From Saccoglossus kowalevskii (lineage: Eukaryota > Hemichordata > Enteropneusta > Harrimaniidae): a stretch of 21,383 bases of DNA. Of the stretch, positions 1-19,975 are shown piece after piece. The position numbers and the translations under genes were made by a program. The notes beneath the pieces were generated by a model. The model made no database searches. It was not told the origin of the DNA and saw only the letters and a list, made by a program, of their open reading frames with translations. Numbering within the stretch: the first letter of the stretch is position 1; every line of letters starts with the position of its first letter. The stretch spans positions 4,814 through 26,196 of the forward strand of contig NW_003105115.1 in assembly GCF_000003605.2 (NCBI RefSeq). Direction: 5' to 3'.

Positions 1-506
1 TTACAAAAATGTAATTCGTTGAATTTTTATGAATTGGAAGTAATATTCAACTTAGTTTCATCGTAAACGAATGATTTCGGTCGAACGTAAATGCTCGATG
101 TGATACGATATCCGCCAAGTTTTCAATACACGTGGCTCATTTAAATATGTTAATGACGGTTCAGTGACCTCGTGGTGAACGCAACGCGGTAGTAGATTTA
201 CCGATGTTGTAGCAAGAGTTTTTTTGTTTTAAATCAAACAATTAGTTGTTTTCAAAAAATAAACTGAGCATTCAAAGAATAATTTAAAATTGTTCGGAGA
301 AATAACAGCTCATTGTCGAAACGAAGCTTACCCATTCAGGCTAATCACAATAAACATCATACTCTTGAATGACTACGGTAATATAAATTTGACTCTTTTA
401 GGCGTCAGGAGAGAATGAAATATACAAAATATTAAAAATCAAAGAAAGCTTAGAAAGAACTCCAGTGTGCTGAGAGTATTTAAGACACATTAAATATAAT
501 TCAAAA
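1..506. other. Left edge, no gene recognised
   Basis: This is AT-rich DNA with no long open frame, no recognisable RNA gene and no repeat shared with the rest of the window. The tandem-repeat core of element A becomes recognisable near 507. The 5' end of that element, expected to carry an AACAAG-type terminus, was not found here, so either it is degenerate or the element is 5'-truncated. Confidence 0.5.
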
Positions 507-866
507 TTACTTGAATTTGAGATATTGATGGAAACGCAGAAAACTAATTATGCAGATTTAAGTGTAAAACTAATAAGGTCTGCACAATGTACCAAGTTTC
601 ATTGAATTGTGATTAGAACCAACAAATTATTAATTATTATGCTAATTAGAGAATTAATATGAACAGATTTTAACCCAAAATTAATCAGGCTGTCTATTGT
701 CCTAGAGCATTTATGTACCAAGTTTTATTCAAATGTGATGATCAATACTTGAGATATCAGTATTAATTAATTATGTTAATTAGGTGATTAAGAAGCATAA
801 ATATTTACCAACAAGCAGCCTATCGGCTGAGATAGCTCCGCTGTTAGCAATGCACATTTCAATTAA

Positions 867-1860
867 AGAACTGAAGACATCATTAGAAAATGAACAATAT
901 GTATAGTATCAAAGCAATCGGACTTACAGTTTTTAACAAGAAGTTGAAAATATCACTTTTTACCAAAAATTACAAAAATATTCACCAAAATTAGAGAATT
1001 GAAGATATCATCACTAAATGAACAAATCTGAGAGAAGTCCACATGTAGTACCTATATATGTAATATCAAAGCAATCGGACTTACAGTTTTTAACAAGAAG
1101 TCGAAAATATCACTTTTTATCAAAATTTACAAAAATATTCACCAAAATTAGAGAATTGAAGATATCATCACGAAATGAACAAATCTGAGAAAGGTCTACA
1201 TGTAGTACCTATATATGTAATATCAAAGCAATTGGACTTGCGGTTTTTAACAAGAAGAAAAAATATCACTTTTTATCAAAAATAACAAAAATAGTCATCA
1301 AAATTAGAGAATTAAAGATATCATCACGAAATGAACAAATCTGAGAGAGGTCTACATGTAGTACCTATATATGTAATATCAAAGCAATTGGACTTGTGGT
1401 TTTTAACAAGAAGTCAAAAATATCACTTTTTACCAAAAATGACAAAAATATTCACCAAAATTAGAGAATTGAAGATATCATCACAAAATGAACAAATCTG
1501 AGAAAGGTCTACATGTAGTATCTATATATGTAATATCAAAGCAATTGAACTATTGGTTTTTAACAAGAAATCGAAAATATCACTTTTTACCAAAAACTAC
1601 AAAAATATTCACCAAAATTAGAGAATTGAAGATATCATCACAAAATGAACAAATCTGAGAGAGGTCCACATGTATAACCTATATATGTAATATCAAAGCA
1701 ATTGCACTTGCGGTTTTTAACAAGAAGTCGAAAATATCACTTTTTACCAAAAATGACAAAAATATTCACCAAAATTAGAGAATTGAAGATATCAACATGA
1801 AATGAACAAACCTAAGAGAGGTCTACCCAAGGTACATATACACCAAGTATCAAAGCATTC
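867..1860 (+). repeat. 157-bp tandem repeat core of element B copy 1
   Basis: The anchor AGAGAATTGAAGATATCATC or a close variant recurs at 993, 1150, 1306, 1463, 1620 and 1777, a nearly constant 156-157 bp. Each unit also carries CATGTAGTACCTATATATG, TATCAAAGCAATTGGACTTG and TTTTAACAAGAAGTCGAAAA. A divergent first unit starts near 867. The even spacing and low divergence imply recent unit amplification by unequal exchange or replication slippage. Confidence 0.9.
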
Positions 1861-1937
1861 AGGCTTGTAGTTTTCAAGAAGAAGTTGAAAAAGTAAAACA
1901 TTGACACGGACGACGACGGAAAATCACTCATATGATA

Positions 1938-1968
1938 AGCTCCGCTCGACAAAGTCGACAGCAGAGCT
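1938..1968 (+). repeat. 3' terminal hairpin of element B copy 1
   Basis: AGCTCCGCTCGAC pairs with GTCGACAGCAGAGCT around an AAA loop, with a two-base bulge and one mismatch. It is followed by AAAAA. The copy at 19422-19452 has the same hairpin without the mismatch. Confidence 0.8.
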
Positions 1969-3001
1969 AAAAACCAATATGGTGTATAGTCCTAGGTTCA
2001 TTGAAATGGGATGGGTACTCTTTAAAAGTTTCATTAAAATCCAATGAGTATTTTTTTTAGACATCAGTGCAACAGCCATAGAACAGCAAAAAAACTAACT
2101 AATTATGCAAATTAGGTAATTAATATGCACAATTATTTAACTCAAAATTAATCAGGTCTCTGCATAGTCCTAGAAGATCTATGTTGCAAGTCTCATTGAA
2201 ATATGATGATCAGTACTTGAGATACATTTGTATCAGGTGAAAAGCTGAAAATGAACTAATTATGCTAATAAGGTGATTAATATGGACAAATATTTACCCA
2301 AAAACTGATCAGGTCTCTGCACAGTCCTCAAGTAACTATGTACCAAGTTTCATTGAAGCGTGATCATTACTACTCGAAATATCAAAAGCTGAAAATTAAT
2401 TAATTATGTAAATTAGGTAATTAATATGCACTGATATTACCTTAAAAACTATCAGGTCTGTGCAGTGTAATATGACATCTATGTAAGTTTTATTGAAATG
2501 TGATGATTAGTACTTGAGATATCAGTGGAAAAGCCAGAAATTGATTAATCATTATGCGCATTAGTTCAGAGTATTCATGTGCCAAGTTTCATCAAAATCC
2601 AATGAATGGTTCTTCAAATATCAGTGGAACAGTCATGGAACAACTTAAAATAAGTTAATTATTATGCAAATTAGGTAATTAATATTCATATATTTTTACC
2701 CAAAACTAATCAAATCTGCGCACTAGTTCAGAGCATCTATGTGCCAAGTTTCATCAAAATCCAATGAGTGGTTCTTTAGATATCAGTGGAACAATCATGG
2801 AACAGCTAAAAATCAGCTAATTATCATGCAAATTAGGTAATTAATATTCATGGATTTTCACCAAAACCTAATCAACTCTGCGCTTTATCCCAGAGCATCT
2901 ATGTACCAAGTTTCACCAAAATTTGATAAGTGGTTCTTGAGATAACGATGGAACAAAAATAAGTGACATACATACAGACATACAGACAAGGTAACTGCAA
3001 A

Positions 3002-3032
3002 GACTCCCTTTTGTGCTTCGCACACGGGAGTC
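3002..3032 (+). repeat. 3' terminal hairpin of element A
   Basis: GACTCCC at 3002-3008 pairs perfectly with GGGAGTC at 3026-3032. Inside the loop GTGC-TTC-GCAC forms a second short stem. A run of A follows directly. This corresponds in position and form to the 3' hairpins of elements B and C, so it marks the 3' end of element A. Confidence 0.75.
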
Positions 3033-3706: not shown

Positions 3707-3712
3707 CTAATC

Positions 3713-3870
3713 TACTGTAAAATATTTATCATTCGCTGAAAAGACTTTTTCTGGGCGTTTTGTATTGAATTTATTTTCATTGATTTTTGACAAGTTGACT
3801 GTAAAATATAAGAAAAGGGTATATTCGCTGGATTTTATTTTAACTGAAATTTTTGATGGAAATTGTGAAA
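3713..3870. mobile_element. MITE-like fragment, CTGTAAAAT family
   Basis: CTGTAAAATA followed by ATATTCGCTGG and a T-rich stretch ending AACTGAAATTT occurs twice here, starting near 3713 and 3797. It resembles the stretch at 10178-10372, which begins CTGTAAAATGACTAATATTCACTGGG. The similarity is partial and the boundaries are uncertain. No coding function is claimed for the short frames over it. Confidence 0.4.
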
Positions 3871-4059
3871 ATGACTCACTTGGGATTTTCAGATCTGGAA
3901 AAAAAATTACGTGCATACTCAGCAGAGACTTGTTCATCAACCTGCCAAGTTTCACTGATATCTGCTGTAGAATTTCTGAGAAAATGTTGGAGACGGAAAA
4001 TGGAATATGGAAAACGGAAACCGGACATTTGACATAACCTGAATTATAAGTCCCCTTTT

Positions 4060-4689
4060 CATCTAACAGGTGTAAGATGAATTTAATTCCATAGAAATGT
4101 TCAGCAACCCAACAAATTGCTTGGGACAGCATGTCAAAAATCTTTGGGCTAGATCTGCAACCAAATACTAATCTAACAAAAAAGTAATACTTGCCCTCCC
4201 ATTTTACCCCATGAAAGGGAACTTGCTTAAATGCGTCAGTTATATCAATTATATTCCTCAATAGCATCATCTATTTTAATATATGACATCGAAAAAGAAG
4301 CCTTACCAATGACATCATTAAGACTTGTAACCCCTGGTTCATTGTGAGTAGCTGAAAAATCTACTATAAGGAGTTTCTTGCCTGAATATTCACCTTCAGC
4401 TATACCAAGAGGGCTGATGCAATAGACAGGGAATGGGGGGTGGGGGTAACAAAGGGTTCTATCACATAACCTTTATCTATTTCTGATTGTAAAAGGATAC
4501 TGACAGAAACTGGATCTGCCTGGCTGATAAATTATTAGTACACTCAAAAGAGACAACTGGGACATCACTGATCCCAGTTAAGAAACCATTCCTAAGTCCT
4601 GTACACAGATTGTCAACAAAAATCCTATCCAGATGTTCCATTAACAGTTCCTCTAATTTGTCAATATTAATTGGAGTACTTGCGAAAAG
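4060..4689 (-). pseudogene. Reverse transcriptase fragment of the DIRS-like element
   Basis: The N-terminal RT region begins with TPINIDKLEELL near 4670 and runs through LCTGLRNGF and EIDKGYVIEPF to the poly-C frameshift. It then continues as SPLGIAEGEYSGKKLLIVDF. The next block holds the first catalytic aspartate (DITDAF), then KWEGKYYFF, FGCRSSPKIF and finally LLDE where LLDD is expected. Residues between DDA and DITDAF, and between QVPF and the following HGVKW block, are shorter than usual for the family, so small internal deletions are likely. The region ends exactly at the second catalytic motif. Confidence 0.75.
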
Positions 4690-6203
4690 TTGTCATTGCA
4701 TAATTGCCAGCGTCTTTTTATCAGCAGTAGTAATGGATTTGGAACGTTTCAAACTAGTGTCCACCTTTACAAATAGAACGTGGAGGAATGAACAGCCTGG
4801 TCGCAAACAACCATTCTGCGAGTTTAAGTTGTTGCAAAGCTCTCTCCCATTATAGAACACTCGCTTACGTCCTCTTATATCTGTAGTGCGTTGCTGTTGA
4901 TTTGTGCTTAACTGCCCTGCCTGTCCAAATCTCTTTTGTGGACAGCAGTCTTGCATATGGAGGGTGCTGTTACAAATCACACATGCAGCAGCTTTCCGAC
5001 CAGCTGAACATTTAATAAAAAGATTATTGTCTCTGACGGACCAGTCTACTTTAACTTTTTTTAGTTGGAGCCATGTAGCTGCATTCATAGAAAATTGTAC
5101 ATGGTAATCATAAAACACAGCTCCATAACTATTGGCCATATCAATTATGTCATTTTCATACAGTCCAATTCCTCTCGCCTCCCCGGATGAGCATCTCGAT
5201 CACACATAACTGCCTTATACCTTCCAAATGCCACCAGGAATTCACTTCAAGTTAGGGACTTATTTAGACGAGGATCCGAATTTCCTTTGATATGTATTTC
5301 ATTCCCAGCTAAATCCATAATAGATCGATTGTCTGACATTTCATGGGCTGGTATTAGCAGAGCTGCTAAATTAATATATTTACTTTTGACAATGTTATCT
5401 CTCATGGTCTCTGATACATTTACAATCCTTGACAATTCATGCGATGGTACTCCAAAACTTATCCTTTTGGTCAGATCGTTCTGTCCTGTGCTATTTAATA
5501 CATTGGGAGTCAAATCGCATCTTTGTGCACCCACGAAAATTGAATTCTGACTTGCTTTGTTTCTTCCGGGTATCGGTCTGTTTACCAAGGAGGCAGCCAT
5601 ATTGGATTGACGTAATGACCCAGCTGGGTCAGTTTCCCGTGATGCATTGCATGAAGACAAGGTTGTGATGTTGGAATTCATATTTTGAACCGTAGAACAT
5701 AACCCTTGTACCGTTTGACGTAAATCGTTGATTTCACAACGTAAACTTGTATCGGCGTCCGAGCTAGGCTCTTCAGTATCAGAAATGTTATTTTCTTGTA
5801 TTAAAATATTAGTTGCATCGTTACAAATCTCGATATTCTGCCTGTTTTCCGATGACTCTACCGATATCGGTTGGGAAGTAAAAGCCTCATGCTCTCTTGA
5901 TTGTCCTGCATTAAGTTCATAAATTTTGATAAATGATTTCCGTGATAGTCCTGCTGGTAAATTGAAACCCATGTCTTTCATTTTTGATTTTAGTTCGCTG
6001 GTAGACCAGTTAGCAGGATTATTGGGGTCAAGAGTGGCATTTCTTGTTCTTGTAGGTCGGAAAGGTCGTCGTCCTCGCGCCTGCTTAGAAGTAGCCGCAT
6101 CGTCTGCTGCTGTATCGCTCCTTGTTACCGGTGACTGGTCTTCTGCAACCCGTGCAGGGCATTTTCTACATTGTTGACGTGTGCTCATACAACGATTTTC
6201 CAT
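4690..6203 (-). pseudogene. gag-like ORF of the DIRS-like element
   Basis: The probable start is the ATG at 6203-6201 (MENRCMSTRQQ), because sequence upstream of it in the same frame is low-complexity and unlike the family. An early Arg-rich region (GRRPFRPTRTRN) and a SAP-like stretch (WSTSELKSKMKDMGFNLPAG, near 6020-5960) are followed by a Ser/Asn-rich linker. After an in-frame stop at 5249-5247 the same frame continues (SEFLVAFGRYKAVMC). A one-base shift near 5160 then moves it into the frame beginning MANSYGAVFY. A CCHC knuckle (C-x2-C-x4-H-x4-C) lies at about 4983-4942 and a CCCH finger (C-x8-C-x4-C-x3-H) at about 4836-4780. These would bind nucleic acid in the particle. Family-level assignment is good; exact clade is not determined. 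Confidence 0.7.
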
Positions 6204-6754
6204 GATAGTTGACACGGATATGGAATATATATAGAAAAAATATTTTAAAATGATAGACATAAAAAAACCAAGATGCAGTCTTCTAGAAAGTGTGGCATGA
6301 GACGCTGAGTAGAGAGAAAACATACCCCCTAGTGCAATGGCCATGAAAGACCCCTTAGTCAAATGATCATGAAAGAAAAGGCAAAATCTTGTGACATAAA
6401 TACAGTTTAATCTTACAATTAAACACCAATAGACAGTTTACCTGTTTTGTAAATAATACACAAACAAAATAAATGTCCACTCTTCAAACAATAGCAGATG
6501 TTTTCGTTTATTATGGATTGACAATTATTGTATCTTTATTATCTTACATTACACATGGAATTTGAACTGAAGCTACCTGCAAGTGTACAGGACTGAACTT
6601 GAATGACAATAAAATTCAAAATATTAAGCTTGGTCACCTTGGTGAACACTGGGGAGTAGCATGTTCAAAAGCGAATAAAGATTGTATGTATGTGCCTGAA
6701 TGCTGAATAACCTAAATCCATATGTATAGTATGATGTCTTTAAATAATTTTCTG
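6204..6754. other. Spacer between DIRS-like element and element C
   Basis: AT-rich DNA with no gene recognised. On transcript orientation this is the 5' side of the DIRS-like element, so part of it may be the element's terminal repeat, but I found no matching repeat elsewhere in the window. Confidence 0.35.
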
Positions 6755-7605
6755 TTGTATCATTGGTGTGCCAGGGAGAGAGCACAAGAAATTGCGTCAC
6801 TTAGACGGCACATCCAAGAAATAGTTCTGGACATGTTACAGAATGTGATTTTATGTTTTTTCGGCAAAATGGTCAAACATTGAACTGAATCAAGCCATAT
6901 CTTTCAGAGTAATATACACAAAAAAGAAAAAACAAAATGGCCGTGAGTCAGTCCAAATTTTGAAAAAAATATGATGTGCACGAGTAACCCAATATACATG
7001 ATCACCACACAAAGTTTGATTGAAATTGCCCTATCAAGCCCTGAGAAACAGTTCTGGACACGTTACAGACTGTGATTTTAAGATATTAAACAAAATGACC
7101 GCCATTTCAACAAATTTGATCAAATCTAAAAACAAAACATGGTGTTGTGTTATCTTGAAGTATAGTACCTATGTATAAACTTTGAACTGAATCAGGCCAT
7201 ATCTTATGGAGGAATCAGCACAAAAACAGGGAAAAAACTAAATGGCCGCCAGTCGGCCATCTTGGACTGAATCTCAAAAAAAAGTGACGTGCACTTATAA
7301 CCCAATATGCATGATCACCATACAAAGTTTGATTGAAATCACTCTGTTCAGCTCTGCGAAACAGTTCCGGACACGTTTAAATATCAGAATTTAGCAAATT
7401 TAGGGACAAAATGGCTGCCAATCAGACATATTTGATCAAATCATAGGAAAAATTGGCGTGCATTATGTGGATCATCATACATTGTCTGTATGCAAAGTTT
7501 GAACCGGAACGGCCAAAGTGTATCCGAGAAATGGCTCAGGGCGGACACACAGACGGAACCCAAATTAATAGTCCCCGTTTTCAGACTTCGTCTGAACAGG
7601 TACTT
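6755..7605 (+). mobile_element. Element C: HINE-like element with about 155-bp tandem units
   Basis: Degenerate units are anchored on ACAAAATGGCCGCC-like motifs near 6931, 7087, 7237 and 7406, spaced 150-169 bp. Alternate units are more alike: 6931 with 7237, and 7087 with 7406. This shows an A-B dimer period of about 310 bp. Each unit carries CATACAAAGTTTGATTGAAAT. A short GGACACACAGACGGA tract (about 7542-7558) precedes a 3' hairpin (7571-7600). The core is clearly related to element D. The 5' end is not resolved. It ends about 180 bp past the MRPS33 stop codon, near that gene's poly(A) signals. Confidence 0.7.
7571..7600 (+). repeat. 3' terminal hairpin of element C
   Basis: TTCAGAC (7580-7586) pairs perfectly with GTCTGAA (7590-7596) around a TTC loop. 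The outer part (GTCCCCG on the left, CAGG on the right) is only partly complementary, consistent with an eroded longer hairpin. Confidence 0.7.
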
Positions 7606-7889: not shown

Positions 7890-10800
7890 CTGGAAAGCAT
7901 GATAAAGATGATAAAAACAGGGATGGTAAAAATCATAATTTATTCAACACCACTTTCAGCATAATTTCCCCTACTATTTACAGGACAATGATAGGTGATG
8001 TCTGTAATTAACAACACAGTGCAATAATTAAAATCACTTCCTATCACCTCCCTCATCAATGAGTTTTTGTTTGGGTGCAGAATTTAAAGTGTAACTGAAT
8101 TGGGCCAATTGACTTTTTTTTTTTGTGCAAAATATACTTATAAACAACATTATGAAAAACAAGTCATTGTCAATGACACATCCCCGTTCCGTTCATATTT
8201 GAGTGACATATACATTCAAAGCAGATCATGACCGAAATGCACCTGCATATGTACAACACATTGTGCTAAATCTGAACAAAATCCATCCATGCATGACTGA
8301 GATCCGGTTCTGGAATTGTGAAAATACGCGATTTTGATGCATTTTCGGCCTTAAAATGGCCATCATTCCACTATTGTTAAGCAGATCATGAAACAAATGC
8401 ACATATCTATTTGTGACATGATGTACCATGTGTGTGTGAAGTTTGAACTTGATCAATCCAGACATGTCTTGGATACGGATCCAGAACTGAATTCTTTAAC
8501 AAAATGGCCGCCAGTCGGCCATTTCGAACTTGATCCGGAAAAAAAAATGACGTGCATCAAGGTCCTATTATGTTTAATGTATGTACCAAATTTGAATGAA
8601 ATCCGTCCATGCATAACTGAGATCCGGGTCCGGAATGGTGAAAATGTGCGATTTCAATGCATTTTCGGCCTTAAAGCGGCCGCCATTTGGCTATCGTTAA
8701 TGAGATCATGAAACAAATGCACATACATATTTGTGACATGATGTACCTTGTGTGTGTGAAGTTTGAACTCGATCAATCCAAGCATGTCTCAGATACGGAT
8801 CCAGAACTGAATTCTTTAAAACAAAATGGCCGCCAGTCGGCCATTACGAACCCGATCCAAAAAAAAAATGACGTGCATCAAGGTCCTATTATGTTTAATG
8901 TATGTACCAAATTTGAACAAAATCCGTCCATGCATAACTGAGATCCGGGTCCGGAATGGTGAAAATGTGCGATTTTGATGCATTTTCGGCCTTAAAATGG
9001 CCGCTATTCGGCTATCGTTAATCAGATCATGAAAAAAATGCATGTGCATATGTCCCATATAATGTGTGATGTACGAGTGAAGTTTGAACTTAATCGGTCC
9101 ATGCATGTTCGAGATACAGGTGATCACGGACGGACGGACAGATGCACGGACAGACGGACGGACGCACACAGGGCAAACCATCACTAAAAATCAAGTGAAA
9201 AGGGTATACAAATTGGGTAAACAGTCCATGATATTCCAAAATCGGGCCACGCCCCCATCTCCCGTTACCTTCACGTTTTTTTGACATTACGGGTGTTGCC
9301 GAAATGGCGCCACCAACGGGACCATAAAGCAGGAGATAACTAGCAGACAGGATTGTTTATCATTTTCCATACGCACACATTTAGTAAACCAGCATATACA
9401 ACAAGCTACCACGATCGTTATCAAAAGGAAACGCTGTGATGTTGGCGGGTGTAGCAACACACACAGCGATCACGTAAGTTTTTATGCGTTTCCAAAAGAT
9501 GTGGAGTATTTCCGGTTTTGGTACATGCGTCACTGACTGTGTAAACAACCAGAAAAATAATATTTTCCATGTAGAATATGAATATTAATTTGCTTGAAAA
9601 GTTTAGAATGAATTCATGTAATTATGCCGGAGTCGAAATGACTAGATCGATCGTGGAACAACAACAAAACACAAAATGGCGATTGGAAAATGTAACTTGA
9701 AGCACTGGACGTAATCACCATTCATATACTTTGTGTCTTTTACATCATTTCATCAGAAGATCAAGAAACTGTTAATTGCATTTTCTCAAAACACTGATCT
9801 GAGTTGCCAAACCAGTCATGATGTTCAAACTCTGTGCCTGTGTCTGAATCGTCACGGTCATTTTGGGGAGGTACACGGTCACCCACATGTATGGGCCAAT
9901 TTATCCCTGGCATTCTAAAACAAAATCATGACATCTCTCGTTGTCATCATATTCCTTGATCTCATAACTCTCGTCAGATAGATTCCGTGTCGCTTTCCGA
10001 GCACTGCATGTGTATAGCGGCTATCGTGAAACGATGACAAATTCCCTCTGTGACGTCACAAATCACCCTTGTATGCTAATTAGGCTCTCTAGCTGGAGCC
10101 TCGTTCTGAGTCGGCCAAGAAATTGGACGTGGGCGTTTCCTTATCCAGAACATTATTATTGATCGTTTATTTAATGTACTGTAAAATGACTAATATTCAC
10201 TGGGTTTAAATTTCACTGATTTACCATTTCAGTAGGTTTTAAATTCACGGTTTTATCATTTAGGTAATGTGTTCTATGCTAAATTTTACATATTCACTGG
10301 GTTTTAATTTAGCGCATTTTCCAGTCAGCGAAATAAGCAAAATTAAAACCCAGTGAATAATTAAGCCTTTTTCACTTGATTTTTTTTCATAATGTTGTTC
10401 ATAAATAAATTTTGCACACCAAAAAAGTCAATTGTCCCAATTCAGTTACACTTTAAGGCAATATTTTTACCAGGAACTCAATTTCACAGTAGTTCTAATA
10501 GAAATGTGACTTACAGTCTAACGGGCCTCATTAATTTTTCAAATTATGCTCAAATATGTAAATACAGTCACGAAAAATTATTTGTGTAGTAGTTACATCA
10601 CATGCTCTTATAAAAGCGGTTTACGTAGTAAGGTAACCTGTTCACACCTTTATTTGTTTTAGGGCAATGTAAAGAAACACTAATAATAGTTGGGTTGTTA
10701 TATATACCACTAAAAAAAAAGAAGCCTTTTTAGATGTACTTATAATATAGGATAAATAAACACATCATTTTATTTAAATACAAACCTGTATAATCCAATA

Positions 10801-10994
10801 TGCCTTAGTCTTTTCATAAGTGAATGTGTCTGTGGATGTGGAGGATAGTAATTGACGATTTCAGGTCTCTTATCCAGTGGCTTCTCACTAAATAACTTGA
10901 CAACTCTCATGGACCGTTCGTTGGTTGTTCTCACCACTTCACCAAATATCCTCGCACTAAGGCGAGCCATTCTCTTTGCATACAGTGATGTCAT
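7784..10994 (-). CDS. MRPS33: Mitochondrial small ribosomal subunit protein S33 (mS33)
   Basis: The coding sequence joins 10994-10786 and 7889-7784 on the minus strand: 209 + 106 nt = 315 nt, 104 codons plus TAG. The first exon ends with AG at donor AG/GTTTGT and the second starts with A after acceptor TTTCCAG, rebuilding an Arg codon, so the phases match exactly. The protein has the family's [20 protein letters not shown] start, the [15 protein letters not shown] and YYPPH blocks, and [14 protein letters not shown] across the junction. Its C-terminus is basic ([19 protein letters not shown]). Known human MRPS33 is about 106 residues, so this looks full length. The product is a nuclear-encoded component of the mitochondrial ribosome small subunit. 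The frame is intact with no stops, unlike all neighbouring coding traces. The ATG at 10994 is the first in frame after an acceptor. Confidence 0.93.
8080..8157 (+). repeat. Older repeat E, left part, interrupted by element D
   Basis: TTAAAGTGTAACTGAATTGG, CCAATTGAC and AACAACATTATGAAA here match, in inverted orientation, the stretch 10373-10462. The match resumes on the other side of element D at 9188-9203 (ATCAAGTGAAAAGG), so the repeat was split by insertion of element D. Its nature is unknown. Confidence 0.7.
8222..9120 (+). repeat. Dimeric tandem repeat core of element D
   Basis: CAGATCATGAAACAAATGCAC-like anchors occur at 8222, 8382, 8702 and 9023. Unit one (AAGTTTGAACTTGATCAATCC, then AAAATGGCCGCCAGTCGGCC) alternates with unit two (TGACGTGCATCAAGGTCC, then CATTTTCGGCCTTAAA). 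The monomer is therefore about 160 bp and the higher-order period about 320 bp. Confidence 0.85.
9126..9170 (+). repeat. GACG/GACA-rich tract of element D
   Basis: Short GACGGACGGACAGA-type repeats sit between the tandem core and the 3' end. Equivalent short GAC-rich tracts occupy the same place in elements A, B and C. Confidence 0.85.
9420..9536 (+). pseudogene. THAP-type zinc finger fragment
   Basis: The frame from 9420 reads [18 protein letters not shown] then SFYAFPKD and FRFWYMRH, ending at TGA 9534-9536. C-x4-C near the start, followed by the F-x-FP-x-D block and a tryptophan, is the N-terminal half of a THAP (C2CH) DNA-binding domain. The later Cys and His ligands and the AVPTIF-type end are not found downstream. 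It may be a first exon fragment of a THAP protein, or a remnant of a THAP-bearing transposase (P-element or Kolobok-like). GTAAGT occurs inside it at 9475-9480, so splicing cannot be excluded. It lies antisense in the MRPS33 intron. Confidence 0.55.
9537..9760. other. Intronic spacer after the THAP fragment
   Basis: I see no feature here. It lies within the second MRPS33 intron. Confidence 0.4.
9761..9913 (-). pseudogene. Acidic 50-codon ORF, unidentified
   Basis: From the ATG at 9913 the frame reads [17 protein letters not shown], then [24 protein letters not shown] and on to TGA at 9763-9761. Upstream in a different frame is another acidic stretch ([19 protein letters not shown], about 9990-9930), suggesting one decayed acidic protein crossed by a frameshift. 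The G-N-S-D-x-C pattern after an acidic tract faintly resembles the P2X7-type cysteine-rich domain of many invertebrate proteins, but this is weak. It could equally be chance. Confidence 0.25.
10178..10372. mobile_element. MITE-like element, CTGTAAAAT family
   Basis: The element begins CTGTAAAATGACTAATATTCACTGGG and ends with the inverted block AATTAAAACCCAGTGAAT (10343-10360). ATTCACTGGGTTTTAATTT (10289-10308) pairs with that block as a large stem. A related stretch lies at 3713-3870. No coding capacity. The termini are not clean. Confidence 0.5.
10373..10462 (-). repeat. Older repeat E, uninterrupted inverted copy
   Basis: On the minus strand this reads TTAAAGTGTAACTGAATTGG, CAATTGAC, AACAACATTATGAAAAAA and ATCAAGTGAAAAAGG without interruption. 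It is the pre-insertion form of the repeat that element D entered at 8157/9191. It lies next to the MITE-like stretch at 10178-10372, so both may belong to one larger repeat. Confidence 0.7.
10463..10785. other. 5' portion of MRPS33 intron 2
   Basis: AT-rich intronic sequence directly following the first coding exon on the minus strand. No further feature is seen. Confidence 0.5.
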
Positions 10995-11003
10995 GGCAAC
11001 AAA
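10786..11003 (-). other. MRPS33: MRPS33 first coding exon
   Basis: The exon runs from an acceptor ending TTACTTCACAG (AG at 11005-11004) to the donor AG/GTTTGT (GT at 10785-10784). It has nine bases of 5' UTR (TTTGTTGCC) before the ATG at 10994-10992. The acceptor upstream of the start codon shows there must be at least one non-coding 5' exon. Confidence 0.9.
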
Positions 11004-11005
11004 CT

Positions 11006-11790
11006 GTGAAGTAATGATCAATCATAAATATTAGTAACATTTATCTAGTGAGCACTGCTCCATATTTGTGTACAACATGCCACTGTAAAAAAATAACAAT
11101 GAAGCATTTATCATCATACCAATGATTTATAAGATATGCAAGTGATGTGAGAGATGCAACGAAAATATCTAGTGAATGATTGTCGCTACAAATTTTATTG
11201 GCGCCCAAATTCTAAAACAACAACAGGAGATGTAAACTCATTAAAAATCTCATCAACACACTGTCAGTGGGTCAAATATTGCAATTAATTAAGGGGAAAG
11301 ACCAGGCAAACAACATGATGCTACCAGATGAAATTGTAAACATAGCAGTTGGCAATTTACAGTTTTTTTCATATCACTTTTCATTCTCTAGATATTCAAC
11401 AATTCATCAGTATTATGTAGTCCACCATCTTGATTCTCCAGTAAAGGATTATGGATAAAGTATGACATCATAGCCAGCATGCCATGCTCTGAATTATGTT
11501 GGAACTACATATAATAATAATAATACAGTTTTATTAAAGATGATATTTTAATAAAAGGTAAGGTAAAAAGGTAAGTAAAAAAAAGAACATGGACATGCAA
11601 ACCAGGGTTCTGTAAAACTCCATGCAATGAGTTTCAATGAATATTCATTTTGGTTGTCATTGTCAGCAAAAATCATAGACTGTTTTCAACAAGATGATAA
11701 ACAATTGGCGAAAATAAACTCTGCAGAGAATGGTTACTCTTTGATGGCTGTCACTTTCTGACGTTCCTGCAATTTGATTTTGGTACTTAC
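11006..11790. other. MRPS33 intron 1 (5' UTR intron)
   Basis: The region is bounded on the minus strand by a strong donor, GTAAGT at 11790-11785, and the acceptor TTCACAG at 11005-11004. It is AT-rich and contains a short ATA microsatellite at about 11510-11525. No mobile element was recognised. Confidence 0.55.
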
Positions 11791-12000
11791 AAAAAATCGT
11801 CGGCGGAAGTGACAAAACTACATCGTTCTGTCAGGCGTGTGTTGGATTTGATCTAGCCCTGAATACAGTCCTGTAGGCTGGCCTTCTTCCGCTGATCATT
11901 CGGCCCCCACAGTCCTGAAAAGTCGTATAGACTGAGAATTCGACACCCGCCTACAAATTTATGGCGGAGAACCGTTCTGCAGTTTTCATGATTGTATCCA
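11791..12000 (-). promoter_or_regulatory. Probable MRPS33 5' exon and CpG-richer promoter region
   Basis: On the minus strand, CACTTCCGCCGACGATTTTTT precedes the consensus donor GTAAGT (11790-11785). This makes a suitable non-coding first exon for MRPS33. CACTTCCG is also an ETS-like motif, common at promoters of ribosomal and mitochondrial genes in animals. CpG dinucleotides are clearly more frequent from 11800 to 11970 than in the surrounding AT-rich DNA. The transcription start is not located. Confidence 0.5.
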
Positions 12001-12149: not shown

Positions 12150-12211
12150 TCGATCCTAGTGGAAAATCTTATATAATTTCACTTCCAGTTAAGTTATTTA
12201 GAATATAATGA
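12150..12211 (+). mobile_element. Non-LTR retrotransposon fragment, left piece (5' of hAT)
   Basis: Just left of the hAT end one frame reads HFQLSYLEYND. After removal of the hAT and one copy of AATGA it joins in frame to NKGKSRKNKLRIYR at 18571 onward. This suggests the hAT entered a retrotransposon fragment. The piece is short and contains an in-frame stop, so the left limit and identity are tentative. Confidence 0.35.
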
Positions 12212-12228
12212 CAGGCCTCAAAATTAAC

Positions 12229-12510
12229 ATCGTCCCGACGGCCCGGGGCACTAAAAATTTAGGCCGGGACCACTAGAAATTCATTTTGGGATCTTTTTTG
12301 GGACGATAGAAAAATAATCAACATCGTTATTTAAACCCATTATAGTTTGTCAGGTGCGTGAACAAGCTGTCGGCTCCCAAAAGGCCCCCGAATTTGGTCT
12401 GTGGTTGTGCAATTACTGCGCGCCTGGAAGCTGCTAACACCCTGATTCTTTACTCCGCCCCATCCCTTTGATCTGCATTTAGCTCTTCCCATACGCGTGC
12501 ACTTTCCCGC
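12229..12510 (+). repeat. hAT left subterminal region
   Basis: GC-rich GACGGCCCGGGG and GGCCGGGACC precede GGGACCACTAGAAATTCAT, TTTTGGGATC and GGGACGATAGAAAAA. A closely similar series (GGGACCATTGGAATTTAT, TTTTGGGAAC, GGAACAATAGGGAAAAAA) occurs in the same orientation at 18497-18548 in the right end. Such blocks usually serve as transposase-binding regions. Confidence 0.55.
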
Positions 12511-14093
12511 CTCAGTTTTCACGTAGATATGAGTTGAGCGTACGCTCACTTTTAAAAAGTAAAGCATGGGGACAAACCATCGAATGCTGGTAATGTAATG
12601 AGAGCTACGCTCAGTTTAACATGAAGTCGACACAAATTCACGCGAGAGGACTTTTGTTAAAACAAAGCAACCATGTTTAATTAAATATTCACACAGTTTG
12701 ACCCATATGACCTTGTAAAGAAAAAAGGGGCATCTCAGCTTTCCAAAGATACAAGTTGAGCCTACGCTCACTTTCAAAATTGGGCATGGTGCCAAACAAT
12801 GTAAATTGAAGTCTTGCGACCCAATTAACACCTCGACCGAGGTGTTACCACATTATTACGTTACAGATTGATGAATGGAGATGTCCGTTTCTGTCACTTG
12901 TAGACAACTAACCAGTAGAGTCCCAACAAGTATGGGTGGGATGAGAAGAATTATATATATATTAATAAATTTGTTTCCATGTCCGTTACGGCCAAGTAAA
13001 TATTGAGTTTTCATTTAATTAAAATATCAGCGTTCAAGTGACTTTGCATAGCTCCGATGTTTTAATAAATATTATTTCGTCACATAGCTACATTTATTTT
13101 GTTATTGCACGTCATATTTAATTAAAGTAAGTATACTTTACTGATAAAGATGGAAATACATGTTAGCAGAAAGAGAGTGTACGCTCACTTAAAACTAGAC
13201 ATGAGAAAAAACAATTGAATTACACAGATTGAGGAATACATGCGTGACTCATTTCAAGAAAGCAGAATTATTTTCCGCACACTTTAGTCACCAGTATATG
13301 AATGGAGTTTTTAAATGCCGAATACAATATAGTAATTTAGATGCAATGCTGACACCACTAATGCAGTCTCGATCAAATGTGTATTTTACATGTAAATTTA
13401 TATTTTCATGAGGGTCAGCCAATTGAAGCCAAATGATTCTTACGATCACGAAACGATTCACGCACATCTAACGTATTTGTATAAATGTAGCAACGTGCAG
13501 CTTTGCACTACCATTGCTGTAGTGTAAATCTATGAAGGTTGATCCGGACATATGAGCAAATTGGGAATGTTTCATTAATAAAACGTCATTCTTTTATGTG
13601 TGCACAACAACTCTTAGTCACTGAGCGTTGTTTACAGACGACAACAAATGAATACACTCTAGACAAAACAAACGCCAGAGTTGCATCTTTATTAACTATT
13701 AAATATAATTGTTGCTGATCCCGACATTTATTTTGCGTAAATCAAAATGGTACTCTCAAAAACTTCATGTATTCACTGGCGGACTTATGGTTTCTTAAAA
13801 TCATACACACGCACTTCTCATTCCATTTTGGTTCTACGCCTACTATTTCATGTAAAAGTGAGCGACATAGTCTCTCATTACCAGACGTGTCCATTTTACA
13901 AGGGTTCAAACTGCGTGAATATTTAATTAAATATGGTTGCATCTGTTTTAACAAACGTCCTCTCATGTGAACATGTATCAACTTCATGTTAAATTGAGTG
14001 TAGCTTTCATGACGTTACCAGCATTCCAGTTTGTCCCCGCGCTTACATTTAAAAGTGAGCGTACGCTCAACTCGTATCTTTGTAAAAACTGAG
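12511..14093. mobile_element. 1.58-kb foldback-type element with about 205-bp inverted arms
   Basis: The left arm (12511 to about 12716) and right arm (about 13887-14093) are inverted copies. Shared stretches include GAGTTGAGCGTACGCTCACT, GGGGACAAAC, GAATGCTGGTAA, AACATGAAGT, GAGAGGAC, TTGTTAAAACA and TTTAATTAAATATTCAC. The ends are CTCAGTTTTCAC and GTAAAAACTGAG. The palindrome GAGCGTACGCTC occurs in both arms (12536-12547, 14057-14068), with variants at 12602, 12758 and 13175. No transposase is encoded. It lies just upstream of the hAT transposase start. No clean target duplication was seen. Confidence 0.7.
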
Positions 14094-14171
14094 ACGCTCA
14101 ATTATCGCGCTCAACTACCACCTAGAGACTCATTTGCATACCCTGTATGTTGTGAAGTGTGGAGTCTTTGG

Positions 14172-15740
14172 ATGGCACAGAGGAAAATTCTCGGCTTTTT
14201 TTCCCTGCGCGACGCCCCTGGGCCCACACTGTCGAAGGAAGCGACGCCCAGTGCTTCAGCCAAGGAGACCAACAGTGTTCAGCCCGATTGTCATCAGCAG
14301 TCTTCAGATTGCGAACGTGATGCGAGGGCCGATGGAAGGAGGGAGGGGGGCTCCATCGTGATCAATGCTGACACAGTTCATTCGGGCGAACGGCCAACCA
14401 AAAAGGCAAAGACCTCACGTGGAATACTTAAAGCACCCGAGTCAGCCATTGCTTCAAGTTCAACTTCAAGTCCAGCCCCAGTCACTACTCTGTGTCCCGT
14501 GACATAACAGGGGGGATCTGATGAAAGCTCAAGTGATGATGAAAACGACACGTACGACGTCGAGCCGCCAGTGCAGAAGTCCTTGGTATGTTTTTATCCA
14601 CTTCAAAATTATCATTGGTGTAAAGTTACTTTTTTCGATGAACTATAATTATTTAATGCAAGGAAAATTCTATCACCGGTAGTGTATGATTTCCTTATGA
14701 ATCTGGTTAAACCACAACAAGGCCTAATTCTTGTTTGACATACATGTATTCCAATTGATTTCAATAAACTGTTTATGGCTTTAAGTCTGTAATGACCAAG
14801 GTTATTTTATTTATTTTCTTTTGTGACTGTCAGTAACCAAGAACTTTAGTATATGACCTTAAATATTATTCTTCTAATTTAATACAAACTTTCATTTTAT
14901 CCTTTTGAGAAAGAAATGAACTACTTCATTGATTGAAAATTATCAATTTAGCTGATAGATATTTTTTTTTTCTTTTCCTACTTTAGAACACAGTGCCAGC
15001 TTCTAGAAAGTATGAGGACTAACGGAAGAGATGCTTCCTGGAGAAGTGTCGGAAAACCTATGACTTTGACTACGAAGCAGAAGTGATGTTCTGCAAAACG
15101 TGCAGGGCTGAACCCAGGGTAGCAAAAGACAACTCTCTGTTTCATGGGGTTATGGGAGATAAGATTAGAGTAAAAACTCTCCAAGAGCATAAAAAGATAG
15201 TTGCTCATGGACTGTGTGTTGCAGCAAATAAAGCCAGACAGAACCCAGTTCATGCACCGTTACGACATGCTTTACAACACATGGACAATGCAGTTAGAGA
15301 CAAACTTATAAGTTTGTTCAATACCGCCTATTTTGTGGCGAAAGAGGAGGCTCCCTTTACTCTGTTTCCAAAGCTTGTGGGCCTGCAAGTGAAGAATATT
15401 TCCAAGGTTTCTAAGAAGAAAGTTTAGCATTGTATTACATATATGTAATTGTAAATTGTGAAACAAAAAGGAGAATTAACTAGAATTTGTTCTGGTTAAT
15501 GTGTTTCAGATAACTCCAGGTGCTAAGCTCGAGATGAATTTGGCATGCTGTGAAAGAGGTTTTTCATGTCTTAATCGCATAAAGTCAGATTGGAGAAGTT
15601 CATTGAGTAATGAGATGTTGGACTATCTACTTAACATCTCCATCCATGGCCCAGACACTGTAACTTACAATGCAGAGGCTGCTGTTCTGAAGTGGTGGAT
15701 GAGTGGACAGAGGGAAAGAAGACCACAGTTTATGGACTAG
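14172..15740 (+). pseudogene. hAT transposase remnant (ZNF862/C17orf113-type)
   Basis: Exon 1 (14172-14585) starts MAQRKILGFFS, a typical start of this family, and ends at donor TTG/GTATGT. Exon 2 starts at 14987 after a T-rich tract and CTTTAG. It encodes the N-terminal zinc-finger region (FCKTCRAEPRVAKDNSLF...LQEHKKIVAHG) and the following helical part ending FTLFPKLVGLQ (about 15395). The last exon starts at 15510 after TGTGTTTCAG and encodes the C-terminal dimerisation segment (CCERGFSCLNRIKSDWRSSL...LDYLLNISIHG...KWWMSG), ending TAG 15738-15740. Two in-frame stops (14505-14507, 15020-15022) interrupt it. The roughly 400-residue catalytic middle is absent: only 110 bp separate the two halves. 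It cannot make an active transposase. Confidence 0.8.
14586..14986 (+). other. Intron of the hAT transposase gene
   Basis: The 401-bp AT-rich interval is bounded by GTATGT and a polypyrimidine tract ending CTTTAG. It falls between two in-phase (phase 0) coding blocks. Nothing else is seen in it. Confidence 0.65.
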
Positions 15741-15787
15741 TCCAAACAGGTAGTTTCAAATATCTGTGTCATTTTGTTATGTAAAAT

Positions 15788-15793
15788 AATAAA
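15788..15793 (+). terminator. Poly(A) signal of the hAT gene
   Basis: AATAAA lies 48 bp after the transposase stop codon, on the same strand. Confidence 0.55.
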
Positions 15794-16473
15794 TCTTACA
15801 CATTTGAATCTGTGTTGATTTTGAGTTTATTGTAACTGACTGTAGTTTATACAGAAATACTGTACTTTGACTCAACTTTAGTGTTGTTGTACCGTAAAAA
15901 CTTGATTAGTTTGCGGTAGTAAATATAATTATAAAGTCCACGAATTAATAGTGTAAAAATGGAAATTATTGGTTTTTGGTGCGCGAATTAAAAGAGTACT
16001 TTTTGATCGATTCAAAAAGCAGCTGTTTTTATAAATTTATTAGTGATTTGTTTTGTTTTCCAATGAACACGATTACAGACGTTTTTTTAGTGCCTCTGAG
16101 ACTCGTGGCTAGCGACATTCATGGCGTATAGTCGGGCAGAAAACACGCACTGCGTCAAGGACCACACACCATGTTACACTTGAAATGAAACAGTGAAAAA
16201 TGGCAAAGGTCACTCTGTACACAAACAAACAATGAACACGTGGCTACAAAGTAGCCGTCTGGCTGCATTGCCTTTTTTTTATTTTTCTAGGCATTGCCCG
16301 GGCGATGTTATGGCAGATATTATGAGGCCCATCTTGTCTGGAAAAATAACCCTGCGTTGATAAAAATGGTCTCAGAAAATGTTTAGAAAAAACAATGTTT
16401 CGCGTTGACCAAATATAATCATGCAAAGTATAAATTCAAAGTGTTTTAATACATTGGTGAGAGGTCGCATCAC

Positions 16474-16923
16474 TAAGGGAGACGTCAAAAGATCGATGTC
16501 GGATAAAAAATCTTAATTCCTTTAGTTTTTTTCCAAACCCCCCTATCCCCCACTGAAACTTAATTGATAAATATTGGTCATGACGTCAGACTACATTCAC
16601 CATTAAATACAAATCGATAATCGAACAGTAGTATTGTATAGCAGTTGGCTGTCGGGTGGGTGTAAAAGGATTTTACAAATGCACCTCATTTGACGCACAG
16701 ATTTACACTCGAACCAAACCATTTTTCTGTTTTTTTCCCTTTTCGGTTATTTCTGTCCATGACTGGATAGAAAAAAAACAAACTACAAATACTCCAAGAT
16801 TTTTTTGACTTCATTAAAAAATCGTTTTTGTCGGATGGAAACCTTTTGAGGTCAAAACCCCCCACCCCCAAACTAAAGGAGATAAGTTTTTTATCCGACA
16901 TAGATCTTTTGACGTCGTCCCTA
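16474..16923. mobile_element. 450-bp MITE nested in the TA-flanked element
   Basis: The left end AGGGAGACGTCAAAAGATCG, ATGTCGGATAAAAAA and CCTTTAGTTT are mirrored on the right, which in reverse complement reads GGGACGACGTCAAAAGATCT, ATGTCGGATAAAAAA and CCTTTAGTTT. The inverted repeats are about 55 bp. TA stands at both boundaries (16474-16475, 16922-16923). No coding capacity is seen. Confidence 0.75.
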
Positions 16924-16925
16924 AG

Positions 16926-17979
16926 AAGGAAAAGCAAGCCAAAGTCGAAACGGGGTGCATCATGGACATGACACAACACACGCTGCGTCAACTGAGTGAT
17001 CAGCGACATCATTTTGGGACGCAATTGAACTTCAAGTACGTTTTTGCGAAACGTGTTGCGCGGTGATGCTGACATCAAGTGTGTGTTGACCGAAGTTTGA
17101 CCCCAAGTCACGCACTGCACTGAACTGGCGCGGTACCTTAGCAACCTCTTTTTCTTTCGTGCCCCGCGCGTCAAACTAGTAAAATTGTTATTATATCCGA
17201 AGGTACTGTAATTACGCAACTTGTATGCAACTCTGTACTGGCTTGAATATATTAACTTGAACGTCGTTTACTTAGTGCACTGCTTTTCTAATTACGCAAA
17301 TTTGTTTACAATATTGTAATGGCTCTGTACTTCGTTATGCATTGCTTTCATGATAATTAGTTTTTTTTTTAACTATTGTTAGGGCACTGACCCGGGGTAT
17401 TGGGTCTACGAATATTTCAATATCAGCGACTTGATAATGCGTTGCATTCATAATAATTACGCAAACATAAACATACCATACGTCAAATTAAATTTTACTA
17501 TAATATAATAAACTCTGGGCAGCGGACTTAGATCGCATTTTCACGTACATTTCGACTGAACTCTAATAACCACGCGTTTGAATTACGTGCGGCACTGGGC
17601 AATGACATCCAGATATTTAATTTCATGCACTGATATTTAAATTCGGGCCACCCAGCTTGACGCAAATCAATATAGTTACTTGTCATTTGTTCGAAAAATC
17701 TTTTAACTCTCACAAATACTATGGACGCGAAGAGTTAACTGGGGGTTAAATGAAAAGAAACGTCTTTCTTGGACAAAAAACACATCAGTACAAGATTATG
17801 TGTGCAAGGTTAGATTTATAGAAGGTACATGACCGCTTAACACTGTGTTTTTTTACCGAATCCGGTACAATGAAAATGTGACACGAGGTCAATCGCCCGA
17901 CCAATCAAAAATGTCAATTTACACACCATAGGGCGGTTCACTTAAATGACGTAATAGAATAATGGCGGGCACATGGTCG
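16926..17979. other. Interior of the TA-flanked element, no gene
   Basis: Short frames on both strands show no recognisable domain. This is the internal non-coding part of the 2.57-kb element. Confidence 0.45.
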
Positions 17980-18012
17980 ATGCAACCATGGACGTACGTC
18001 CATGATGCAACC
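17980..18012. repeat. Perfect 18-bp palindrome between direct repeats
   Basis: CATGGACGTACGTCCATG (17987-18004) is exactly self-complementary. ATGCAACC lies at 17980-17987, overlapping the palindrome by one base, and again at 18005-18012. A CRE-like TGACGTAA is 40 bp to the left. Confidence 0.85.
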
Positions 18013-18565
18013 CTGTGGACCAGCGACGAAAAAGCCCTGTACTAAGCTTTCCATCACGGAAATTCGTAATCGATGTGCTGACCGATGGATATTTATCGAC
18101 TACGTAATAATCTTGCCCAACATCTGTAGTGTCGTGGGGTTATGATTTTTTTCACGTCAAATCTTTACCGAACCTAAACTGCTTGCTAACTGAAAGGCTG
18201 TGATGACGGAGATCATCTGCGATTGCGGCGACACTAAGTAATGATACATGTAACATAAAATTATATGTATATTTTTAATGTCTTCGAGCAATATATATTG
18301 AGTTATCCACTTTATTCTGGCCCGTGAATTAATAGGATACAATTTTAAACATGTTTTTGAACGCCGCGAATTAAAAGGATACATTTAAAAATTAGCGTTC
18401 AAAAATAAAATGGGTGCGCGAACTAATAGAAACCGTGAATTAATCGAGTTTTTACGGTAATATGCTTCTTATAATGGGACCTTCCATCCTCACTTTGGGA
18501 CCATTGGAATTTATTTTTGGGAACACTTCTGGAACAATAGGGAAAAAAGTTGATTTCGAGGCCTG

Positions 18566-18658
18566 AATGATAACAAAGGTAAAAGTCGCAAAAATAAGTT
18601 AAGAATTTATAGAATGATAAAACATAATTACGATTTTGAAAAATACCTGGAAGATGGA
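18566..18658 (+). mobile_element. Non-LTR retrotransposon fragment, middle piece
   Basis: Between the hAT right end and element B copy 2 one frame reads NDNKGKSRKNKLRIYRMIK then HNYDFEKYLEDG. It continues in the same frame after element B as PSHRSALTKLRISSHTL. This resembles the region after the reverse transcriptase in non-LTR elements (NKLR-Y, then HR-ALTK-RIS). Confidence 0.65.
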
Positions 18659-19458
18659 AACAAGCAGCCTGTCGGCTGAGATAGCTCTGCTGTTAGCAAT
18701 GCACATTTCAATAAAAGAACAGAAGATATCATTAGAAAATGAACAATATGTATAGTATCAAAGCAATGGGACTTGCTGTTTTCAACAAGAATTCAAAAAT
18801 ATCACTTTTCACCAAAAATGACAAAAATAATCATCAAAATTAAATAATTGAAGATATCACCACGGAATTAACAATCTGAAAGAGGTGCACATCACTTTTT
18901 ACCCAAAATGACAAAAATATTAAACAAAATTAGAGAATTGAAGATATCATCATGAAATGAACAAATCTGTAAGTGGTCCACATGTAGTACCTATATATGT
19001 AATATAAAAGTAATTGGATTTACGGTTTTTAACAAGAAGTCGAAAATTTCACTTTTTACCAAAAACAACAAAAATATTAAGCAAAATTAGAGAATTAAAG
19101 ATATCATTACAAAATGAACAAATCTGAGAGAGGTCCACATGTAGTACCTATATATGTAATATCAAAGGAATTGGACTTGCGATTTTTAACGAGAAGTTGA
19201 AAATATCACTTTTTACCAAAAATGACAAAAATATTCACCAAAATTAGAGAATTGAAGATATGATCATGAAATGAACAAATCTGAGAGAGGTCTACCCATG
19301 GTACGTACATTTGTATACACCAAGTATCAAAGCATTCAGGCTTGTAGTTTTCAAGAAGAAGTCGAAAAAGTAAAACATTGACACGGACGACAACGGGCGA
19401 TGAACAATCACTCATATGATAAGCTCCGCTCGACAAAGTCGACAGCGGAGCTAAAAAA
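18659..19458 (+). mobile_element. Element B copy 2: HINE-like element inside the retrotransposon
   Basis: It has the same 5' terminus as copy 1 (AACAAGCAGCCTGTCGGCTG, then AGATAGCTCTGCTGT), the same tandem units, GACACGGACGACAACGG tract and 3' hairpin (19422-19452). It ends ACAGCGGAGCTAAAAA. It is about 360 bp shorter than copy 1 because it has fewer units (full 157-bp anchors at 18932, 19089 and 19246, plus shortened ones). The flanking retrotransposon frame joins cleanly when it is removed. Confidence 0.82.
19422..19452 (+). repeat. 3' terminal hairpin of element B copy 2
   Basis: AGCTCCGCTCGAC pairs with GTCGACAGCGGAGCT around AAA, with only a two-base CA bulge. The right half also forms the inverted partner of the 5' TAGCTCYGCTGT. 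Confidence 0.85.
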
Positions 19459-19975
19459 CCCATCGCACAGATCTGCTCTAACTAAGCTAAGGATCAGTTC
19501 GCACACATTGCAGATTGAGGCAGGAAGATACATCAACCAAACAGTAGAAGAGAGAAAATGCCACTACTGTCAGGAAAAACAAATAGAAGATGAAAGCCAT
19601 TTTCTATTAAAATGTTCTCTCTAAGCTGATTTAAAAAACAAGTTCCTCCATACCACAAATGTTATTATAACAATTGACAAATCTGATATTGAAAACACTG
19701 TAGACATTCTAAAAACAAAAGATATACAATCACTAATTAATTTGGCAAAATATATCTTTGAGTGCTTCAATTTAAGAAATGACACCCATAAACAAAAAAT
19801 ACCAGCTGCTTTATAATTTTTCTGTTTTGTTTTTTTCTAACCATTCCTTGTTCTCAGTTTTTATTTTATTATGTTTTCATTTTGTCTTGCCATTTTGTAT
19901 GTATCTGAAACTTTATTGTATTTTAAGAATCGAGATTCTGAACAGGATAAGATTTCAATAAAGGCATCATTATTC
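19457..19975 (+). mobile_element. Non-LTR retrotransposon 3' fragment
   Basis: The frame PSHRSALTKLRISSHTLQIE, AGRYINQ and RKCHYCQEKQIEDESHFLLKC carries the C-terminal zinc-binding signature C-x2-C-x9-H-x4-C found after the reverse transcriptase in many non-LTR elements. A stop at 19621-19623 breaks it. The same frame then continues (ADLKNKFLH...LINLAKYIFECFNLRND) to a TAA near 19816. AATAAA at 19957-19962 and an ATT-rich end close the fragment. The clade is not assigned. The reverse transcriptase core is missing, as expected for a 5'-truncated copy. Confidence 0.7.

Follow-up and report, generated by a model that had tools for sequence, protein, structure and literature searches.

A nest of six mobile elements of common kinds in a contig of the hemichordate Saccoglossus kowalevskii

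The descriptions available for the closest relatives state that a 5-bp target site duplication (TSD) defines the hAT5 group of the hAT superfamily, that canonical Harbinger elements have 3-bp TSDs and that a TA target duplication is used by more than one superfamily (PMC12730594). HINEs, which are non-autonomous Helentrons, are described with subterminal inverted repeats (subTIRs) that mostly contain one mismatch, and with T-rich or TT targets that are not duplicated, the number of T varying between copies; in the Pearl elements the arrays consist of repeats of about 160 bp (PMC4067079, PMC7492417). The 3' subTIR of mite HINEs is located 38-60 nt from the end, and a canonical Helitron is characterized by 5' TC, 3' CTRR and a target between A and T (PMC4067079). 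The Cg_HINE of Crassostrea gigas has been found inserted in other elements, some of them retrotransposons without long terminal repeats (non-LTR) (PMC7492417). Elements resembling these are found together in a stretch of 21,383 nucleotides of Saccoglossus kowalevskii (contig NW_003105115.1, positions 4,814 to 26,196), referred to here as the window, in which a retrotransposon-like fragment, a hAT element, a foldback element, a TA-flanked element, a miniature inverted-repeat transposable element (MITE) and an element named B are inserted into one another.

The analysis of this locus has revealed six mobile elements of common kinds that are nested near an animal gene, and the nest is real but ordinary, mostly well bounded and composed entirely of elements of known kinds. 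It very probably arose by ordinary transposition, decayed or non-autonomous mobile elements having become nested in a non-coding part of an animal genome. Nested transposition had been proposed in a preliminary description of this DNA and has been confirmed, with a maximum depth of four levels (retrotransposon, hAT element, TA-flanked element, MITE) in place of the five layers announced there. Most of the boundaries proposed earlier were correct within 1-3 bases, and the ends of element B, the MITE and the TA-flanked element have been adjusted (Table 1).

The hAT element and its inserts

The ends of the hAT element were searched for as pairs separated by 2-9 kb, with exact identity of the 8 end bases, a terminal inverted repeat (TIR) matching in at least 15/17 bases and an identical 5-bp TSD, and 40 dinucleotide shuffles were used as control. 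The pair 12212/18565, with the ends CAGGCCTC and GAGGCCTG, was the only one found in the window and no pair was found in the shuffles (0/40). The terminal bases match in 15 of 17 positions (CAGGCCTCAAAATTAAC from 12212 compared to CAGGCCTCGAAATCAAC, the reverse complement ending at 18565), and the target duplication is a perfect AATGA at 12207-12211 and 18566-18570, so that the span assigned to this element in the preliminary description is borne out. When the TSD was not demanded, 41 pairs appeared in the window, many of them shifts of the same repeats, compared to a total of 329 in the 40 shuffles, and for this reason the call rests on the TSD. A hAT element with the usual 8-bp duplication was rejected because the duplication is of 5 bp, by which the known hAT5 group is recognized.

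The hAT element retains 299 + 1798 + 108 bp of its own sequence once the inserts are subtracted, and three pieces of a putative transposase are located in it. Piece 2 matched the zinc finger zf-C17orf113 (E 8.1e-07) with 29.2 bits, missing the cut-off of 29.5 by 0.3 bits, and its predicted structure was too poor for use (mean predicted local distance difference test score, pLDDT, of 39.1). Pieces 1 and 3, without any Pfam match, are assigned to the transposase on a resemblance that we assume, and no piece of the catalytic (RNase-H-like) core was seen among the listed open frames. The search for relatives of the C-terminal piece in viral_contigs yielded 21 pattern stretches, none of them confirmed. 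The silence of this collection and of genome_contigs, phages and PDB says little, because their records are viral, phage, prokaryote or solved-structure ones and not an animal genome, and an animal retrotransposon is unlikely to be found there.

The three elements carried by the hAT element were examined by counting the inverted-repeat diagonals that reach 24/28 in the window and in 20 shuffles. The foldback element, the TA-flanked element and the MITE each reach this value, and eight such diagonals were present in the window and none in the shuffles. Near the ends of the foldback element target duplications did not exceed 3-4 bp, a point that weighs against a separate insertion, and its outer limits are set by the inverted repeats. 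An inverted duplication born within the hAT element would agree with this short duplication; it is considered unlikely, since the two 200-bp arms, identical at 176 of 201 aligned positions, have the sharp outer ends of foldback transposons.

The arms of the TA-flanked element (15890-15917 and 18432-18459, 28 nt, 86% identical) include the TA present on either side, so that the earlier placement at 15890-18459 was right as to the flanks and too wide by the TA itself. Both a TA duplication, which we take to be a sign of Tc1/mariner, and TIRs like those of Tc1/mariner-like elements are present; the element has not been filed as a member of that superfamily because no DDE/D transposase was matched at E<=1 in five of its open frames. 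The MITE located inside it, whose arms of 37 nt are 89% identical, had been given as 16474-16923 (450 bp) and measures 445 bp between the two TAA copies. The 3-bp TWA duplication and the TIRs correspond to those of PIF/Harbinger MITEs, and the MITE probably belongs to this superfamily, although a 5-bp CTAAG duplication, or one of 7/8 bases with misaligned ends, also fits. In a scan of ten open frames (four in the foldback element, five in the TA-flanked element including one that overlaps the MITE, and one in element B) no transposase was matched at E<=1, and the two matches obtained, with E 0.018 and 0.08, corresponded to unrelated families and were under the cut-off. As no transposase was recognized in the foldback element, the TA-flanked element, the MITE and element B, all four were presumably mobilized by enzymes encoded elsewhere.

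Containment establishes that the retrotransposon was at this site before the hAT element and element B arrived, that the lineage of the hAT copy is older than its inserts and that the TA-flanked element is older than the MITE. The preliminary description had considered the whole order of events fixed in this way, which is too strong beyond these relations: containment does not rank the hAT element and element B, nor the foldback and the TA-flanked elements, and it cannot date the inserts with respect to the arrival of the hAT element, because they could have come as a single unit with a hAT element that had taken them up beforehand. In such a case the foldback element, the TA-flanked element and the MITE would have entered an earlier copy and arrived together within a composite of 6.35 kb. 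This is improbable, as a hAT element of 6.35 kb that has apparently lost its transposase core would be a poorer transposition substrate than a short one; nevertheless, the window contains nothing that distinguishes a composite arrival from the order proposed earlier, and there is a precedent in print, the V domain carried in many copies inside the DNA transposon MER6 (PMC6887750). If the composite did land as such, the inner elements would have spread as cargo of the hAT element, containment would misdate them and the earlier time order of the inner layers with respect to its arrival would be incorrect. As a general caution, containment orders insertions in the lineage of an element and not necessarily at the locus.

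Element B and the reading frame that it interrupts

Element B is present in the window in two copies, B2 in the nest and B1 in a different tandem-repeat array, with 91.8% identity over 784 aligned positions. The alignment of both copies stops at 810/18659 on the left end and at 1973/19457 on the right end, and the similarity to the tandem units around B1 extends up to base 809 and ends there in three of the four units compared. Read on the minus strand, the 5' end consists of a T run, the subTIR TAGCTC(C/T)GCTGT, a complementary inverted repeat and the array of 157-bp repeats, and the 3' end contains a subTIR matching that of the 5' end followed by a candidate short stem. The subTIRs match in 11 of 12 positions in both copies, a value reached by 1 of 1000 shuffles of the B2 ends, and the complementary inverted repeat beside the 5' subTIR is exact over 9 nt in B2 and 5 nt in B1. 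Stems of 5 bp are present near the 3' end, read without shuffle control; CAGCC/GGCTG was chosen by eye, whereas different 5-bp stems were picked by the script. On the plus strand, the A run has five residues in B1 and six in B2, and no TSD was found at element B beyond this run and its C, as for the T-rich or TT targets of HINEs.

To judge from this anatomy, which is as published for oysters, element B is a HINE inserted on the minus strand. Several features weigh against this assignment: exact inverted matching between its ends does not exceed 6 nt, because of the single mismatch in each copy, the stem chosen by eye was not the one preferred by the script, and the 3' subTIR is located 23 nt from the end, nearer than in the HINEs of mites. 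The canonical Helitron was rejected because a T run and subTIRs are seen in element B in place of the Helitron termini and target, and a plain satellite array was rejected in view of the defined ends and the second copy. Neither the end pattern in viral_contigs nor the element in phages was found (0 in both cases). Joining the flanks of B1 did not reveal an empty site: the join still contained 7 bases of B1 at its left side and 1 at its right side, and of the two flanks the left one alone could be aligned with the neighbouring units (3/4).

B1 is enclosed by a tandem-repeat element at about 440-3031 (units of about 157-162 bp, outer limits set by eye), whose right end shows on the minus strand a T run and GACTCCCGTG...GGGAGTC, which suggests a HINE within a HINE-like element. 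Two more arrays, at 6817-7400 and 8219-9117, in which the repeats recur every 313 and 320 bp, or two times about 157-160, are perhaps of the same style.

The retrotransposon-like fragment, for which the outer limits 12150 and 19975 of the preliminary description have been used, is divided into three parts by the hAT element and element B. When AATGA is counted once, HFQLSYLEYN continues into DNKGKSRKNKLRIYRMIKHNYDFEKYLEDG, and when 798 bp of element B are removed the frame continues into NPSHRSALTKLRISSHTLQIEAGRY...CHYC...HFLLKC. The frame had been said to join across both gaps, which holds for the hAT element; across element B it is open after removal of 798 bp and broken after removal of 799 bp or of the 800 bp (18659-19458) assigned earlier. 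Therefore, 1-2 bases of the A run, within which the ends of element B are uncertain by the same 1-2 bases, are either of host origin or the result of slippage, as has been described for the termini of HINEs. Two stops are found in this frame, one just before FHFQ of part 1 and another inside part 3.

The family label of this fragment comes mainly from a presumed resemblance of the CxxC...H...C stretch and the motif preceding it to retrotransposon C-termini. Pfam gives no real support to the label, and this counts against it: zf-RVT was matched with E 0.1 (13.7 bits, cut-off 27.5) and 0.089, and was outscored by DUF2039 (E 0.057) and Ssl1 (E 0.056). Relatives of the piece amounted to 13 pattern stretches in viral_contigs and 116 in genome_contigs, none of them confirmed, and the sequence searches in PDB, including that with this piece, produced no match. 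The assignment to a non-LTR retrotransposon is considered reasonable but weakly tested. That the three outer segments are instead a host gene in decay or spacer DNA without relation to a retrotransposon is very unlikely, for although zf-RVT lies under its cut-off behind unrelated families and no relative appeared in the three collections, where an animal retrotransposon would hardly be expected, the frame stays open over the two insertions when a length divisible by three is removed, and its C-terminal motifs have the look that we ascribe to retrotransposons.

Table 1. Positions in the window of the nested elements, their parts and the second copy of element B.
Feature	Position	Strand	Remarks
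Retrotransposon-like fragment, part 1	12150..12211 (left limit uncertain)	+	Frame ...FHFQLSYLEYN into part 2; TSD 12207-12211
hAT element (hAT5-like), two insertions inside	12212..18565	+	TIR 15/17; TSD AATGA; 0/40 shuffles
Foldback element	12511..14093		Inverted arms 12508-12719 and 13895-14096
Putative hAT transposase, piece 1 (MAQRKILGFFSLRD...)	14172..14507	+	Open frame 14013-14507; without Pfam match
Putative hAT transposase, piece 2, zf-C17orf113-like zinc finger	15023..15427	+	Pfam PF25431
Putative hAT transposase, piece 3, C-terminal dimerisation-like	15480..15740	+	Presumed resemblance only
TA-flanked DNA element, 28-nt inverted repeats (CCGTAAAAACT...)	15892..18457		TA on both sides
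MITE, Harbinger-like (GGGA...TCCC)	16477..16921		TSD TAA 16474-16476 and 16922-16924
Retrotransposon-like fragment, part 2, preceded by the second TSD copy (18566-18570)	18566..18658	+	Frame NDNKGKSRKNKLRIYRM...KYLEDG
Element B (B2), putative HINE (non-autonomous Helentron), 157-bp tandem repeats	18659..19457	-	Ends shared with the 810-1973 copy; subTIR
Retrotransposon-like fragment, part 3, CxxC...H...C stretch and 3' tail	19458..19975	+	Open frame 19382-19624, one stop, then to 19816
B1, the other member of the element B family, located in a different array of tandem repeats	810..1973	-	91.8% identity

Proposed course of events and surroundings

The first substrate would have been the tail of a retrotransposon of the non-LTR type. 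A hAT5-type element was very probably inserted into this tail through cut-and-paste transposition with cuts staggered by 5 bp, as its TIR and TSD indicate, and the putative HINE would have entered the same tail on the minus strand, within an A/T run and without target duplication, presumably by the Helentron rolling-circle route that its anatomy suggests. The foldback element and the TA-flanked element would have been added to the hAT lineage, and the Harbinger-like MITE to the TA-flanked element.

Other features have been located in the window outside the nest. An exon of MRPS33 type was detected on the minus strand (10770-11021 and 11790-12000; Pfam MRP-S33, E 4.5e-17), and together with the kinds of repeat present it points to an animal genome. 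Its ATG is preceded by a site resembling a splice acceptor, and near 11790 there is a donor-like TTTTTTGTAAGTACC; if the latter marks the 5' exon of an MRPS33-like gene, the nest starts upstream of this gene at a distance of a few hundred bases. Open frames on the minus strand at 3707-6437, which gave no Pfam match worth the name, are presumably similar to the gag-like protein and the reverse transcriptase of a DIRS-type element. A THAP-like stretch is present on the plus strand at 9285-9536 (E 0.0098, 17.1 bits, cut-off 23.9). A strong inverted-repeat pair at 8084-8162 and 10380-10456 (36 nt at 97% and 47 nt at 87%), about 2.4 kb apart, is a candidate DNA transposon that would enclose the 8219-9117 array.

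The locus shows clearly, on a single case, how transposons become nested, and it provides a member of a putative HINE family whose ends are set in two ways, by comparison of the two copies that the window contains and by the interrupted reading frame. It is otherwise ordinary for a repeat-rich invertebrate genome, and the useful correction concerns the depth and the chronology that had been claimed.

Comparison with described systems

Like the elements analyzed by TinT (PMC3014933) and TRANScendence (PMC5657132), those of this locus allow a history of activity to be inferred from elements within elements, although in those works whole genomes are pooled and here a single locus is considered. 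The MITE resembles PIF/Harbinger MITEs in the 3-bp TAA duplication and in its G-rich ends, and differs in that it has no transposase and its ends differ by one indel. With the hAT5 group as characterized in PMC12730594, the hAT element shares the 5-bp TSD and a zinc-finger piece of hAT-derived type; unlike that group, it is without a recognized catalytic core and carries two other elements.

Element B is closest to the HINEs, to which it is likened by anatomy and not by sequence family, and its microsatellite is only weak in comparison. Its 3' subTIR lies 23 nt from the end and not at the 38-60 nt described for mites, whereas the 5' T run that varies between copies, the subTIRs of 11-12 bp with one mismatch, the complementary inverted repeat and the T-rich or TT target without TSD are like those described for Cg_HINE (PMC7492417), Pearl and DINE-1 (PMC4067079), and the candidate 3' stem may be so as well. 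The central array of 157-bp repeats is comparable to the Pearl arrays of about 160 bp, and insertion into a retrotransposon of the non-LTR type, the reading preferred here for the outer layer, is also mentioned for Cg_HINE.

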